Shown here piece by piece: positions 5,211 to 63,204 of a stretch of 64,000 nucleotides of DNA (its first letter is position 1; each line of letters starts with the position of its first letter). The position numbers were made by a program, and so were the translations under genes. The stretch comes from Methanolobus sp. (GTDB lineage Archaea; Halobacteriota; Methanosarcinia; Methanosarcinales; Methanosarcinaceae). The DNA lies in NCBI RefSeq assembly GCF_016278385.1, contig NZ_JADQBY010000018.1:1-64000 (forward strand), given 5' to 3'. The notes under the pieces were generated by a model. That model searched no databases. It saw nothing but the letters and a program-made list of their open reading frames with translations, and was not told the origin of the DNA.

Positions 5211-5873
5211 TTAGAACGGCCTTCGTGTAAATAATGCAGTAATCTTATTCACAGCATCTCCTGAATTCTCTGCATAAATGTCGGCGCCGATTCTGTCAGC
5301 CCACTCCTGAGTTACAGGTGCACCACCAACCATCGTTATGACGTTGTGCCTGAAACCTGCTTCATTGAGTTGCTCCTCTATACGCATCTGATTAATCATC
5401 GTAATGGTCATGAGTGCTGACGAGGCTACTATATCTGCATTAACTTCCCTTGCCTTTTCTACATAGCTCTCGATGGGCACATCGCTTCCAAGATCAACTA
5501 CATTATATCCTGCGATCCTGAGCGCTGTTGCAACAATATCCTTTCCTATGGAATGGATATCACCTTCAATTGTACCTATAACAACTGTGCCTCTTGATTT
5601 GGTTTGAGCACCCATCTGTTCCATTTCAGGTAAAAGTATTTTAATTGCTGCCTGCATTGCATCGACTGCTGCAATAACATGTGGAAGGAACAATGTACCT
5701 GCTGCAAACTGTTCACCCACAATTGCCATTGCCACTGTGAAGCCTTCCTCAATGAGCTCTGCAGGATCAATGCCTGCAGCAAGAGCATCGCTAGCAACCT
5801 TTTTTGCTGCATCATCATCAAATTCCATGACAGCTGCTTTTGCCTTGGCAATAATTTCTTGCTTTTTGAGCAT
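5211..5873 (-). CDS. mttC: Methylamine corrinoid protein, MttC type
   Basis: The corrinoid carrier that takes the methyl group from a methylamine methyltransferase and hands it to MtbA for coenzyme M methylation. The N-terminal helical cap spans about 1-90 and the B12-binding Rossmann domain about 95-220. The cobalt-ligating His107 is in DIHSIG (105-110), with SALM and VGGAP motifs further on. Among MttC, MtbC and MtmC, the sequence from EIIAKAKAA through GTLFLPHV and TIEGDIHSIGKDIVA fits MttC best. No mttB or other methyltransferase lies in the window, so it is an orphan copy; its partner may be encoded elsewhere. Confidence 0.85.
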   Translation of the reverse strand: MLKKQEIIAKAKAAVMEFDDDAAKKVASDALAAGIDPAELIEEGFTVAMAIVGEQFAAGTLFLPHVIAAVDAMQAAIKILLPEMEQMGAQTKSRGTVVIGTIEGDIHSIGKDIVATALRIAGYNVVDLGSDVPIESYVEKAREVNADIVASSALMTITMINQMRIEEQLNEAGFRHNVITMVGGAPVTQEWADRIGADIYAENSGDAVNKITALFTRRPF

Positions 5874-56363: not shown

Positions 56364-56399
56364 TATCTGGTTGTTAGTATTTTTGTGTTTGCATTAGAA
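56364..56399 (-). repeat. 36-bp element upstream of mutL (copy 1)
   Basis: Matches 60449-60484 upstream of mutS at 34 of 36 positions and lies 58 bases before the mutL ATG, same orientation. On the minus strand it includes AAACACAAAAATACTAACA, an AT-rich stretch that could contain a TATA box. Probable shared promoter/operator of the mismatch repair genes. Confidence 0.65.
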
Positions 56400-57754: not shown

Positions 57755-60418
57755 TTATCGTTCTTCTTCCAGAAGCCTGTTTTTTAACTGGCTGAGTCTG
57801 TTGAGTGCTTCAAGCGGTGTCATTGAATTCAAATCCATCTCCTTTAATTCCCCTATTACAGGATGAGGAGCTGTTTCACCATATGACGCGTCCTGATCGA
57901 ACAGTATCACCTGAGTATACTTGGCATTGCTGCGTGGCTTTTTCCTGCCACCCTTGCGATCATCCTCACTGATCATACACTCGTTTTCAATATCCTCAAG
58001 GATCTCCTTTGCCCGTGTGGTGACAGCATGCGGAACACCAGCTATCCTCGCAACATGGATACCGTAACTCCGGTCCGTCGCACCCGGCACGATCTTGCGC
58101 AGGAAGACAAGGTCATCACCTTCTTCCTTTACAGCAATGTGGTAATTTCTTACTCTCTTAAGATTGCCTGCAACTTCAGTGAGTTGATGGTAGTGCGTGG
58201 CGAAAAGTGATCTTACACCTACACGGCCTTTGTTGTGGATATATTCCACCACAGCCTTGGCGATACTGTAACCGTCATAGGTACTCGTACCCCTGCCAAT
58301 CTCATCCAGCAGCACCAGACTTTTCGGGGTTGCGTTATTCAGGATGTTTGCAAGTTCCACCATCTCAACCATGAAAGTACTCTGTCCGCTAGCGAGATCA
58401 TCGAAAGCACCAACCCTTGTGAACACCCTGTCCACAATACCGATAGAAGCATGGGAAGCAGGCACGAAGGAACCTGCCTGTGCCATTATGACTATCATGG
58501 CTATCTGTCTCATGTAAGTGGATTTACCGGCCATGTTTGGTCCGGTTATAAGCTGGAACTGGTTCTCGCTGCAATCCATTTCTGTATCATTGGGAACAAA
58601 ACCTCCGGGAACAGTATTCTCCACAACAGGGTGCCTGCCATCCCTGATAAGGAGCCTGCAATCAGGAGTGATAGCTGGCCTTACGTAATTGTTATTAGCA
58701 GCCACTTCGGCAAGGTTTGTCATTACATCCAGCATCCCAATGAATCCTGCTGTCTCCTGCAATTGTTTTGAGTATAATGCAACAGTTGAATTGATATCGC
58801 AGAGCAACTCATATTCAAGAGCTGTCATTTTCTCATCAGCGGAAAGGATGGCACTTTCACGCTCCTTGAGTTCAGGAGTGTAGAACCGCTCGGCATTGGT
58901 CATTGTCTGCTTCCTGATATAATCATCAGGAACCTGGGAAATGTTAGCCTTTGTTACCTCAAGATAATATCCGAAAACCTTGTTGTAACCGACCTTCATG
59001 GACTTGATCCCAGTCCTTTCCCTTTCCTTCTGCTGGAATCTGGCAATCCATTGCTTTCCGTTCTTTGAAAGGTCGAACAGCTCATCTAACTGCTCATTGT
59101 AGCCGGGTTTAATCATTCCCCCATCCCTCACACTGAGAGGCGGTTCTTCCACAATGGCACTGTCAATCAGTTTGGCAAGATCGTTAAGTTCCCCGAAAGA
59201 AGAGAGCTGTGATACGATGCTCTCTAGCAAATCCACATCTTTGCATTCCCGGAGAGATTCAAGTAAAAGTGGAACAGCTTCAAGTGACTTTTTCAAAGCC
59301 ACAAGATCCCTTGCATTGGAATTACCATACATTACCCTTCCAACAAGCCGTTCCATGTCCTTTACATAAGATAGATGAGCACGGATATCAAAGCGAACGA
59401 GGGTGTTGTCCTGAAGCCATGCGACAGAGTCCAGGCGACCATTGATAGCATCTGCCGAGACCAGCGGCTTCAGGAGCCATTTCTGAAGTTGCCTCCTCCC
59501 CATTGGAGTCTTTGTCTCATCAAGCACTCCAATCAGAGAAGAATCATTTCCTTCACCCCTTACATTCCTGACAATCTCAAGATTCCTCAAAGTGATGGCG
59601 TCTAGCACCATGAACTCAGAATCAAAATATGTGTGAAGAGATTGCACTTGCGATAGTTCCCTCATCTGGGTATCCATTGCATAACGCAATGCTGCTCCTG
59701 CAGAAGACACTGCACACGGGAGTTCACTGCATCCCATGCCTTCCAGAGTTGATACTTTGAAGTGTTCACTGAGCACTTTTTCAGCCCTTTCGGAATCAAA
59801 AGCATCCCCTTCAAACTCATGAATGATGATCCTCAGTTCCTTCAGGCGCTCTGTGAGAGTGGAATCAGCAAGCAAGGAACGTGGCATGATGCATTCTGAT
59901 GGCCTCATACGTGCTGCCTCACTGGCAATTCTATTATACGGAGCGATGTCTGTGAACTGTGTGGTCAGGAATTCACCGGTGGAAATATCCAAAAATGAGA
60001 TACCGTATTCATCTTTTTCCCCATACAATGCCATAAGATAGTTGTTAGAGGAATCAGAGAACATGGAAGAATCCATCGCGGTACCCGGTGTGACTACACG
60101 TACAACCCCTCTTTTCACTACACCCTTGGCCTTTTTTGGGTCCTCGAGCTGCTCACATATAGCGACCTTATAGCCCTTTTTGATAAGCCGGGGAAGATAA
60201 GTATCAATTGCATGATATGGGATACCGGCAAGTGGCATTTTTTCCCCGTCCTTACTCTTTCCACGAGTGGTCAGGGTGATCTCAAGCTCCTTTGCGATGG
60301 TCTTTGCATCATCTCCAAAGGACTCATAAAAATCCCCCATCCTGAAAAATATGAGGGCGTCCTTATGCTCTTCCTTGGCTGCATAGAACTGCTGCATGGC
60401 AGGTGTTATCTTTTCCAT
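57755..60418 (-). CDS. mutS: DNA mismatch repair protein MutS
   Basis: Recognises mismatches and recruits MutL. Mismatch-contacting FYE motif in GDFYESFGDD at the N-terminus, connector, core/lever helices and clamp, then the ABC ATPase with GPNMAGKST, STFMVEM, DEIGRGTSTYDG and FATHYHQL. Length 887 fits MutS1. The C-terminal PLEALNRLSQLKN helix for tetramer/beta-type contacts is present. Confidence 0.97.
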   Translation of the reverse strand: MEKITPAMQQFYAAKEEHKDALIFFRMGDFYESFGDDAKTIAKELEITLTTRGKSKDGEKMPLAGIPYHAIDTYLPRLIKKGYKVAICEQLEDPKKAKGVVKRGVVRVVTPGTAMDSSMFSDSSNNYLMALYGEKDEYGISFLDISTGEFLTTQFTDIAPYNRIASEAARMRPSECIMPRSLLADSTLTERLKELRIIIHEFEGDAFDSERAEKVLSEHFKVSTLEGMGCSELPCAVSSAGAALRYAMDTQMRELSQVQSLHTYFDSEFMVLDAITLRNLEIVRNVRGEGNDSSLIGVLDETKTPMGRRQLQKWLLKPLVSADAINGRLDSVAWLQDNTLVRFDIRAHLSYVKDMERLVGRVMYGNSNARDLVALKKSLEAVPLLLESLRECKDVDLLESIVSQLSSFGELNDLAKLIDSAIVEEPPLSVRDGGMIKPGYNEQLDELFDLSKNGKQWIARFQQKERERTGIKSMKVGYNKVFGYYLEVTKANISQVPDDYIRKQTMTNAERFYTPELKERESAILSADEKMTALEYELLCDINSTVALYSKQLQETAGFIGMLDVMTNLAEVAANNNYVRPAITPDCRLLIRDGRHPVVENTVPGGFVPNDTEMDCSENQFQLITGPNMAGKSTYMRQIAMIVIMAQAGSFVPASHASIGIVDRVFTRVGAFDDLASGQSTFMVEMVELANILNNATPKSLVLLDEIGRGTSTYDGYSIAKAVVEYIHNKGRVGVRSLFATHYHQLTEVAGNLKRVRNYHIAVKEEGDDLVFLRKIVPGATDRSYGIHVARIAGVPHAVTTRAKEILEDIENECMISEDDRKGGRKKPRSNAKYTQVILFDQDASYGETAPHPVIGELKEMDLNSMTPLEALNRLSQLKNRLLEEER

Positions 60419-60448
60419 AGTGACTCACACAAAATTAGTATTCCAAAT

Positions 60449-60484
60449 TATCTGGCTGTTAGTATTTTTGTGTTTGCATTGGAA
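60449..60484 (-). repeat. 36-bp element upstream of mutS (copy 2)
   Basis: Second copy of the element at 56364-56399 (two mismatches), 30 bases before the mutS ATG. It overlaps the last seven codons of the methyltransferase gene if that gene is read through its amber codon. A further TTAGTATT, also found inside the element, is at 60436-60443. Confidence 0.65.
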
Positions 60485-61181
60485 GAAATCGTAAAATATA
60501 TTCCATAATAATTTTAAGCATAGTGTTCCCACCTTTCTGGAACTCATAGTTCACCTTTTCTTCACGGACAGTGAATCCACAGGACTACAGATGACCAATC
60601 ACTTCATCAAGATGTATGGATTCCCTTGAATTCAGGTCGATCAGAGGGAATATTCTCACTTCACCTGCAACCCTCAAAAGCTCATCAATAACTTGAATAT
60701 TAAAATCAAAGGAAAGCTGTTCTGAGTTCAAAAACAGCAGGTGTGATACCAGCGCCATCTCAAAGGATTTGTCTGCAAGCGGTAGCTCAGGAAGTCCAGC
60801 TGCAACATAACGGCCCTGCTTTTTGCCTTCCTCAAAGTCGTCAAGAAACATATTCATTGAATTCATACGAATTTTTCCTAATTCCTCAACAGAAGTAATG
60901 TTTTTCCAGACAAATTCATCCTTGTTAGCCTTTGTCTGTCCCAGTACTTCAACATAAGTTTCATTAATTCTTTTCCGTATAGTTTCCCTGTCCAGATCAT
61001 AAATAGAATCAACTGAAACAACCGACTTTTCCTGGATGTTCATCTCACAGTTAAAGCTTGCAGGACCATCACCACAGCCAAGGATTGATCTGCCCATATC
61101 TTCAGCTTTGAGCTTGAACATATCAACATACTCATGGAAAGAGCGACCCCAGGGAACAACATTCTGGTACTAGACCGACAT
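60459..61181 (-). CDS. SAM-dependent methyltransferase gene with two in-frame amber codons
   Basis: From ATG 61181 the frame is open to TAA 60459 except for TAG at 61170-61172 (codon 4) and TAG at 60585-60587. Coding homology does not stop at either: before the first usable Met (61121) lies VVPWGRSFHEYVDMF, and after the second TAG lies VNYEFQKGGNTMLKI, both standard ends of a bacterial/archaeal methyltransferase family with ILGCGDGPASFNCEM as SAM motif. Read through, the protein is 240 residues, the family's usual size; between the TAGs only 194 remain. In a methylotrophic methanogen, TAG can encode pyrrolysine. Alternatives are a nonsense-mutated pseudogene or a shortened 178-residue product (60585-61121). 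Substrate unknown. Confidence 0.75.
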
Positions 61182-61275
61182 ATATTATTGCATTAATTTT
61201 GAAAACGATAAAGATGTTTCAATTGTGTTTTTAAATTGTTGCATACCAATCGTTGCATATAGATCCGGATGGAAC

Positions 61276-61644
61276 TCATTTTGCTTTTTGCACCAACGCA
61301 TATCCCATACCTATAGTGTAAATTGGCATGGCAAGATACCTCATTCCGATATCCTTAAAGTACTCGACAACAGTCATCTGGAAAAATCCACCGAATACCA
61401 TTGACAGGTCCAATGCAAAATTGATTACCAGCCATATAACTCCAAGAAGGATAGCATCGTTGACATAATCTATTTCAACATCCCTGAAATATCTCACAGC
61501 AAGAACTACGCCAACAAGTGCACCTGTTACTACCATAATTGATTTAAAAAAGGTCTCATCTATGGTGAAATTGCCCTGCCTGTCCACAAAGGCAAAGGAG
61601 ACTATGAAAGGCACCAGCCACAGTATCAGTCCGAAAAGTATCAT
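61276..61644 (-). CDS. Hypothetical membrane protein (122 aa)
   Basis: Four hydrophobic helices (about residues 2-18, 32-52, 62-84 and 100-118) with a conserved-looking YFRDVEIDYVNDA loop between the second and third. I start at ATG 61644, two codons inside an upstream TTG. No clear ribosome binding site. No family recognised. Confidence 0.7.
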   Translation of the reverse strand: MILFGLILWLVPFIVSFAFVDRQGNFTIDETFFKSIMVVTGALVGVVLAVRYFRDVEIDYVNDAILLGVIWLVINFALDLSMVFGGFFQMTVVEYFKDIGMRYLAMPIYTIGMGYALVQKAK

Positions 61645-61717
61645 CTTCAAATATTTGTTCGTTTGAAATCCCCCTGAGAATTAAACATCAATATTTGGAT
61701 TTGAATTAAATATATAC

Positions 61718-62314
61718 TTACTGTTCTGAACTTATACCCTGCAATATTTCATAAGCAGCTTTTATTTCCTTATTGATATTAACAACACGGTTCCCGGAAG
61801 GAACAAACAACACATGGGTTCCATTAGATTCAATGGCATAATTTTTGCCTATACACTGTGCAAGAGTATCGTTCATAAATAAGCGATCACCTCCCAGAGA
61901 AAATAGCTCATTGTAACCATTTGTGGACAGAGGAGAAAGTGGCTGTAACCTAAAGATCGGAGCATTTTTCTTAAAAATCATGCCAGATAACTTGAATATA
62001 TTTCCATGGGAAGTACCTGTCCCATACCCCAGGTTGCCAATCGTGATGTTCAGGTCGAATGAAATTATCGATAACCCGCTGAAAGTGCCAGTAAACACAT
62101 TGTAAAGCTTCTGCTTGTTACCAAGTTTGATCTGTTCAAAATTCAGGGATGTGACAATGTCCTTTGAAGCCGGTCGAAACCCAAGTAGTCTGGCCTGTTC
62201 ATTCAGGTTTTTTGATCGCTTCTTCTCATTGAGGAGAGTAAAGATAATTGCCAACAGGATGACGGTCACGACAAATCCTGCAAATCCGATTATAAAGATC
62301 AATCTGAAATCCAT
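61718..62314 (-). CDS. Single-span membrane protein of unknown function
   Basis: One N-terminal helix (about 5-27), a basic stretch (NEKKRSKN), then a soluble domain of about 165 residues rich in beta structure, with FSGLSIISFDLNIT and RLFMNDTLAQ. The layout (helix, basic hinge, globular domain that may read a ligand at the membrane) is clear, the function is not. Confidence 0.7.
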   Translation of the reverse strand: MDFRLIFIIGFAGFVVTVILLAIIFTLLNEKKRSKNLNEQARLLGFRPASKDIVTSLNFEQIKLGNKQKLYNVFTGTFSGLSIISFDLNITIGNLGYGTGTSHGNIFKLSGMIFKKNAPIFRLQPLSPLSTNGYNELFSLGGDRLFMNDTLAQCIGKNYAIESNGTHVLFVPSGNRVVNINKEIKAAYEILQGISSEQ

Positions 62315-62346: not shown

Positions 62347-63204
62347 TTATGATCTTAATAAGATCCTGAATTCAGAATTTGCGTCTTCCCATTCTTTGAT
62401 ACTTGTGTATAGCTTTGTATGGATAAAATGTGATAAATTGTAAGCCAGTCTTAGATTCTTTGAAACTATATCTGAGTCCAGATTGTCTTTTGCATGATTT
62501 CCAAATATCTCTTTAAGCCCAATGGTTAAGATCTCGACCAAATCGTGGCCCTGGCAGATATTCCACACATCTGCATTTAATGTTATCAGACCATTGATAT
62601 GTGTTTTCACCACGGCATCATTCATATCCCTGTTACTTGATTTGGCCTTCAGTTCTTTGTACAACCTGTTGATATTTACAGTCAAATCTTTTGTATCAAC
62701 AAATTTGTAGAAATTCAGGAATTTAAAATCAATGTTCAGATTATATTTTCTGGAGGCCCATCTAATATATCCAATAACAGTACCGCTTTCAAGCAATATT
62801 TCCCGTATCGTCCTCCCAAGTGATTGCAATTTGAAATCTGTTGCATACTCGCTAAGCATTTTTTCCAGGGCATGTGATGCCATTATCATTGTGTCTATAT
62901 CATGTGAATCGGTGGTTAGCAAATTATTGCTGTATCTTTCCGGACTAATTTGGTTCACATGCCAGTAATCTGCATCCACTATCCCAAGAACACCTTTTTC
63001 CCCACTATTTTCCAGTATTGATAGAGCAGATAACAATTTATCTTTATAGACAGCATAGACAATATCACAATAGTCCCCGTCAATGATATCTGTAAATACC
63101 CTTTTGTCCGTACGTCCCTCAACGAGCAAAATAGAATTATGAGAATCCTGACGCCTCATCCTCACCTGGTTTGCAATGCGATGTGATGTAATTTGCTCTC
63201 TCAC
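62347..63204 (-). CDS. DUF4435 protein, AriB-like (candidate PARIS effector)
   Basis: A 285-residue protein whose N-terminal half has TOPRIM-like motifs: ILLVEGRTDKRVF with the catalytic-type Glu, and GVLGIVDADYWH with the Asp pair, followed by a Ser/Asp motif (TTDSHDIDTMI). These are the hallmarks of DUF4435, the domain of AriB, the toxic nuclease of PARIS. GTG start after AGGTG, 8 bases from the upstream AAA ATPase gene, which matches AriA in type and position. Assignment as a PARIS effector is inference. Confidence 0.8.
   Translation of the reverse strand: MREQITSHRIANQVRMRRQDSHNSILLVEGRTDKRVFTDIIDGDYCDIVYAVYKDKLLSALSILENSGEKGVLGIVDADYWHVNQISPERYSNNLLTTDSHDIDTMIMASHALEKMLSEYATDFKLQSLGRTIREILLESGTVIGYIRWASRKYNLNIDFKFLNFYKFVDTKDLTVNINRLYKELKAKSSNRDMNDAVVKTHINGLITLNADVWNICQGHDLVEILTIGLKEIFGNHAKDNLDSDIVSKNLRLAYNLSHFIHTKLYTSIKEWEDANSEFRILLRS

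Follow-up and report, generated by a model that had tools for sequence, protein, structure and literature searches.

In archaea that carry the pyl genes, UAG serves as both a stop and a sense codon, and a reporter gene of Methanosarcina acetivorans given an amber codon showed 20–30% suppression (review, PMC2933860). Pyrrolysine (Pyl) is found in Thg1 (tRNA-His guanylyltransferase) of M. acetivorans, where it is not essential (PMC2933860), and this residue is described as having arisen by neutral evolution (Heinemann et al. 2009, as reported in PMC2933860 and PMC3639795); a survey of candidate Pyl genes proposes the neutral gain of in-frame TAG (PMC3639795). Here we describe an amber-interrupted gene for a predicted class I S-adenosylmethionine (SAM)-dependent methyltransferase in a 64,000-nucleotide stretch of Methanolobus sp. 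(the window; contig NZ_JADQBY010000018.1, positions 1 to 64,000). Two of its codons are TAG, its native stop has been lost, and residues that are invariant in its homologues have been changed. Among the explanations considered, we give about half of the weight to a leaky amber allele of a dispensable methyltransferase, which would be under relaxed selection and sliding towards a pseudogene after a neutral Pyl gain like that of Thg1. The weights of the explanations are our judgement and not a computed posterior.

Like Thg1 of M. acetivorans, the window gene is a non-methylamine gene with in-frame TAG from a methanogen with pyl genes, the TAGs lie in a homologous frame and are absent from the orthologues, and the frame is otherwise continuous. 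Unlike Thg1, it has two TAGs, a lost native stop, and changed invariant residues, and it is known here from sequence alone. With MtmB, MtbB, and MttB it shares an in-frame TAG in a methyltransferase of the same archaea, whereas its sequence and family are unrelated to theirs (Methyltransf_11 versus MtmB and Dimeth_Pyl). The TAG of MtmB, MtbB, and MttB is conserved and catalytically important, whereas the TAGs of the window gene are at variable positions and unique to one genome. Like the broken copies of four relatives (G010, G014, G166, and G188), it belongs to the same family and has acquired stops; unlike these copies, which show mixed stop types, frameshifts, or deletions, it has TAG only and no indel. 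As a side observation, the Thg1 open reading frame (ORF) of one large Methanosarcina-like genome (G152:C1:951549-951908) has 144 amino acids (aa) compared with about 250 aa elsewhere, which, as expected, would fit the known amber codon of M. acetivorans Thg1.

Two in-frame TAG codons in a methyltransferase gene

The features of the frame are as follows.
60459..61181, minus strand: amber-interrupted frame of the predicted class I SAM-dependent methyltransferase, 240 codons plus TAA, of which the first 226–227 codons are the family's own frame
61170..61172, minus strand: first in-frame TAG, codon 4; CAG, AAG, AAA, CAT, or ACT in orthologues; a very variable site
60585..60587, minus strand: second in-frame TAG, codon 199; GTT, CTG, TTG, ATG, TTA, or GCT in same-genus orthologues; a very variable site
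60585..61121, minus strand: sole conventional ORF in the frame that reaches 60 aa; it extends over 178 aa between ATG codon 21 and the second TAG and is without the N-terminal and C-terminal conserved blocks
61207..61213, minus strand: retained TATA-like box, CTTTATC, about 30 nucleotides upstream of the ATG; putative promoter element common to the syntenic relative G004 and other relatives

From the ATG at 61181 to the TAA at 60461–60459, the frame contained exactly two stops, both TAG, and no TAA, TGA, or frameshift, as an initial annotation of this DNA had reported. The homology that it had proposed on both sides of the TAGs was also borne out: same-genus orthologues aligned end to end across both TAGs with 71–79% identity, and the window frame had no indel relative to the intact orthologues. 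When 27 genus genomes were searched, the window genome showed a single copy of the gene, carrying both TAGs. The sample comprises one genome of the species; a contig scan turned up one distant relative and no second strain of the species.

When taken alone, the restriction to TAG is weak evidence, because the probability that both of two nonsense changes in this gene are TAG is about 0.18–0.23. In a wide alignment, codons 4 and 199 were among the most variable sites of the protein (top 2% and 5%), and codon 199 was located at the end of a predicted helix. If two TAG-accessible codons were hit at random, sites this variable would be obtained with P = 0.003 for the wide alignment and P = 0.015 within the genus. 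This variability test and the counts of invariant residues given below were picked after the alignment had been inspected. The initial annotation placed a basic residue at the second TAG and regarded a Lys-to-Pyl change there as conservative. Arg or Lys, mostly Arg, is indeed found in distant Methanosarcina-like homologues, but the near relatives carry Val, Leu, Met, or Ala, and a conservative change was rejected for them.

The CTTTATC box implies a very short leader and appears to back ATG 61181 as the start. The predicted RNA fold downstream of either TAG was not unusual (z = 0.33 and 0.07), which was counted as evidence for decay.

Loss of the native stop

The C-terminal end of the frame has the following features.
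60498..60500, minus strand: codon 228, where the native stop of the family lies; the syntenic relatives G004 and G025 have TAG there, whereas the window has TAT and the stop is lost
60459..60497, minus strand: tail past the lost stop; it overlaps a DNA element upstream of mutS, and its conservation is not evidence of coding

Intact orthologues have 226–227 codons, the last two or three of which follow MLKI. The 240 residues that the initial annotation took for the family length are thus too many, and the lost stop had escaped its notice. A TGA that follows the native stop in G004 corresponds to CGA in the window (60489–60491) with no indel between, and the last 13 codons of the 240-residue frame are DNA upstream of mutS. 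The conserved C-terminus of the long frame was rejected as evidence of coding, since this tail is the mutS upstream element and conserved as DNA. The gene has thus undergone three codon-level events, namely two stops gained and one lost.

The element upstream of mutS was observed in its own right. The 22-base sequence ATGCAAACACAAAAATACTAAC occurs in exactly two copies in the 2.88-Mb genome, both on the minus strand (60458–60479 and 56373–56394), 39 nucleotides upstream of mutS and 67 nucleotides upstream of mutL. It is kept upstream of both genes in nearly all of 14 genus genomes examined, often with an AxCCAGATA.TTT extension, and is likely a shared promoter or operator of the mismatch-repair genes.

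Decoding of UAG in the host

The pyl genes, which the initial annotation had named as a point to check, were all found in the genome (pylT, pylS, pylB, pylC, and pylD); pylB, pylC, and pylD form one cluster, and pylT lies on another contig. pylS was present in all eight genus genomes tested. TAG is also an ordinary stop in this genome, because in the 1.45 Mb surveyed, which is half of the genome, 151 of 1,125 long frames (13%) ended in TAG, and backup stops behind TAG were no more frequent than those behind TAA or TGA. Archaea whose code has TAG always as a sense codon have reportedly been described recently; this stop usage rules out such a code here.

The same 1.45 Mb were surveyed for frames interrupted by amber codons. 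This survey needs 40 codons on each side and misses ambers near gene ends, and the window methyltransferase itself was not listed. Thirty-six same-frame pairs were obtained, and five of them were joined at TAG, representing MtmB, MtbB, two cases of neighboring separate genes, and one doubtful case. A genome-wide excess of TAG interruptions was therefore not borne out in this half of the genome, MtmB and MtbB being the sole other real genes found interrupted by TAG; both had the expected in-frame TAG and matched their families with E below 1e-230. The window also contains a gene for a methylamine-type corrinoid protein (5211–5873; TIGR02370, 3e-78). The mttC of the initial annotation is thus real as a corrinoid protein gene, while its product may be either MttC or MtbC.

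Family and distribution of the gene

The Methyltransf_11 profile (PF08241) was matched by 22 of 26 homologues, with a best E value of 3e-6. The first member (L002) scored 23.7 bits, above the cut-off of 21.2, and the 178-aa ORF of the window scored 12.7 bits, below it. An AlphaFold model of an intact orthologue had a pLDDT of 89.8, and its Foldseek matches were class I methyltransferases (E about 1e-5, TM about 0.4–0.5). Glycine-rich motif I is represented by ILGCGDG after codon 32. From the profile matches and the modelled fold, the orthologues are predicted to be class I SAM-dependent methyltransferases. No named subfamily fitted them, with weak similarity at most, and no solved structure was close by sequence. 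The window protein matched no methylamine methyltransferase family in Pfam and NCBIfam at E up to 1.

Of the 26 other genus genomes, 11 had a full-length orthologue free of internal stops, and orthologues are also present in genomes that we label Methanosarcina-like by inference. Ten of the 27 genus genomes had no match, and five had pseudogenes or remnants only, with stops, frameshifts, and deletions. The gene is therefore dispensable and often lost. Several relatives thus show exactly the decay with frameshifts that the initial annotation had named as telling against its own interpretation. Among the broken copies elsewhere in the class, TAG, TGA, and TAA occurred in similar numbers.

A 53%-identical orthologue is located at L049:4941-5612 on a contig binned as Candidatus Omnitrophota (JAJRVD010000104.1), which would represent either a lateral transfer or a misplaced contig. 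When the region 57755–61650 was compared with G004, mutS showed 89% nucleotide identity, whereas the methyltransferase and its upstream neighbor showed 75% and 82% protein identity, respectively. The trees also disagreed, as mutS grouped with G004 and the window methyltransferase did not. This conflict suggests that local exchange within the genus is likely in this region, and the TAGs cannot be dated for this reason. The ORF at 61276–61650 adjoins the methyltransferase gene in several relatives; this ORF and those at 61718–62314 and 62347–63204 matched no Pfam or NCBIfam family.

Selection on the gene and competing explanations

In the window protein, 10 of the 124 positions invariant in the 11 orthologues were changed, which exceeds the count of each orthologue, but its branch is also long. 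Two of these changes, G51E and Y152N, hit residues that every intact homologue examined retains, including those with as little as about 35% identity; the sole homologue without tyrosine at the Y152 site (L156) is itself broken. Over the 49 sites with the strongest conservation in outgroups, omega was 0.065 on the window branch compared with 0.018 overall (twice the log-likelihood difference, 5.3; the largest of 12 lineages). This value would fit the absence of selection over about 5% of the branch, or approximately 0.03 substitutions per site.

These data can be accommodated by a leaky amber allele as follows. Mutations would have made codons 4 and 199 into TAG, and since tRNA-Pyl suppresses UAG in such hosts, these would be reduced-function rather than null mutations. 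Ambers at tolerant sites would have survived and, in a gene of little importance, been able to spread. If readthrough of each UAG is 20–30%, as in the reporter gene of M. acetivorans, about 4–9% of ribosomes would finish the protein with two pyrrolysines. Selection would then have weakened, with the gene's own stop lost, invariant residues changed, and further decay to follow. We infer that the gene has its TAGs read, yields its product, and is now under relaxed selection. The restriction to TAG, the lack of indels, the variable TAG sites, the low omega on the branch, and the kept TATA-like box speak for decoding. On the other hand, the lost native stop, G51E and Y152N, the conserved-site omega, the lack of TAG in orthologues, and the lack of an unusual RNA fold after the TAGs speak for decay, and the sub-threshold Methyltransf_11 score of the 178-aa ORF was also counted as a sign of relaxation. 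The Pyl-protein interpretation of the initial annotation is thus upheld as to the pyl set, the homology, the lack of indels, and the variable TAG sites, but it is opposed by the lost stop and the two altered invariant residues.

Two results weigh against the leaky amber allele. The conserved-site signal was not significant after correction for 12 lineages and was gone at a looser threshold. In the codon model, omega was 0.115 on the window branch (95% range about 0.06–0.20) compared with 0.128 elsewhere, and the short segment that follows the second TAG had a value of 0.04; any relaxation would therefore be recent and small.

Evidence on the side of decay came from the comparison of relatives for TAG versus AAG/AGG, which the initial annotation had suggested: TAG was present in none of the 11 intact same-genus orthologues (about 2,480 codons), and this absence speaks against a ready acceptance of TAG as a sense codon in the gene. 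The overall omega shows that the gene was functional over most of the branch and leaves no more than a few percent of it for a neutral period. With 0.03 neutral substitutions per site, the probability of two or more nonsense changes is about 0.22 and that of the stop loss is 0.07; in such a period, two nonsense changes are unremarkable, and the stop loss is somewhat lucky.

The gene may instead be an ordinary young pseudogene, in which the TAGs are chance nonsense mutations, readthrough is irrelevant, and the gene is dead. Relative to the intact orthologues, it has two stops of the disabling type under the standard code, and the unremarkable probability of two nonsense changes, the lost native stop, the radical changes at two invariant sites, the ordinary use of TAG as a stop, and the absence of TAG from the orthologues all agree with such a history, as does the breakage of the gene by mixed TGA, TAA, TAG, frameshifts, and deletions in G010, G014, G166, and others. 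However, the probability of no indel at 0.03 substitutions per site is 0.13–0.36, taking 0.05–0.1 indels per substitution, and the combination of two TAGs, no indel, and hypervariable sites is jointly unlikely under random decay. We consider the dead gene unlikely, although worth serious attention, and favor the leaky allele because a plain pseudogene leaves the placement of the ambers on tolerant sites only unexplained.

A maintained enzyme with two pyrrolysines, with efficient reading of both TAGs and a functional protein of 240 residues under selection, would account for a branch omega equal to that of intact relatives, for TAG only and at variable, probably tolerant sites, for the complete pyl set, and for the kept promoter-like box. 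We regard it as doubtful. G51E and Y152N and the lost native stop do not fit such an enzyme, and no intact same-genus orthologue has TAG although pylS was present in all the genus genomes tested. Moreover, the other real TAG-interrupted genes are methylamine enzymes only, no unusual RNA fold follows either TAG, and two UAGs multiply the loss of product. The leaky allele is favored over it because a maintained enzyme leaves the changed invariant residues and the lost stop unexplained.

It is very improbable that the functional product is the shorter 178-aa protein from ATG codon 21 to the second TAG: it is the sole conventional ORF of useful length in the frame, but it loses the VVPWGRSF block (with invariant G12 and R13) and the C-terminal YEFQKGG block (with invariant Y212, E213, and F214), the promoter-like box points to the upstream ATG, and no orthologue is shortened likewise. 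Assembly or sequencing errors are equally remote as a source of the TAGs: the sample has only one genome of the species, but two independent substitution errors in one gene are improbable in an assembly rated 100% complete and with the flanking genes intact.

Implications

Pyrrolysine-decoding archaea are natural suppressors of amber codons, and an amber mutation in them is partial and not null. The methyltransferase gene, which has ambers at two tolerant sites, lacks other stops and indels, and shows signs of weakening selection, offers a test case for whether suppression slows or biases gene decay, and the same gene allows testing whether drift can bring Pyl into proteins. A maintained protein would be a rare case of Pyl outside methylamine metabolism, and it would show that ordinary archaeal genes can take up ambers as neutral sense codons, even twice in the same gene, with TAG still in common use as a stop. 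The gene is most likely decaying but leaky; it makes an interesting test case and is not a proven new pyrrolysine enzyme.
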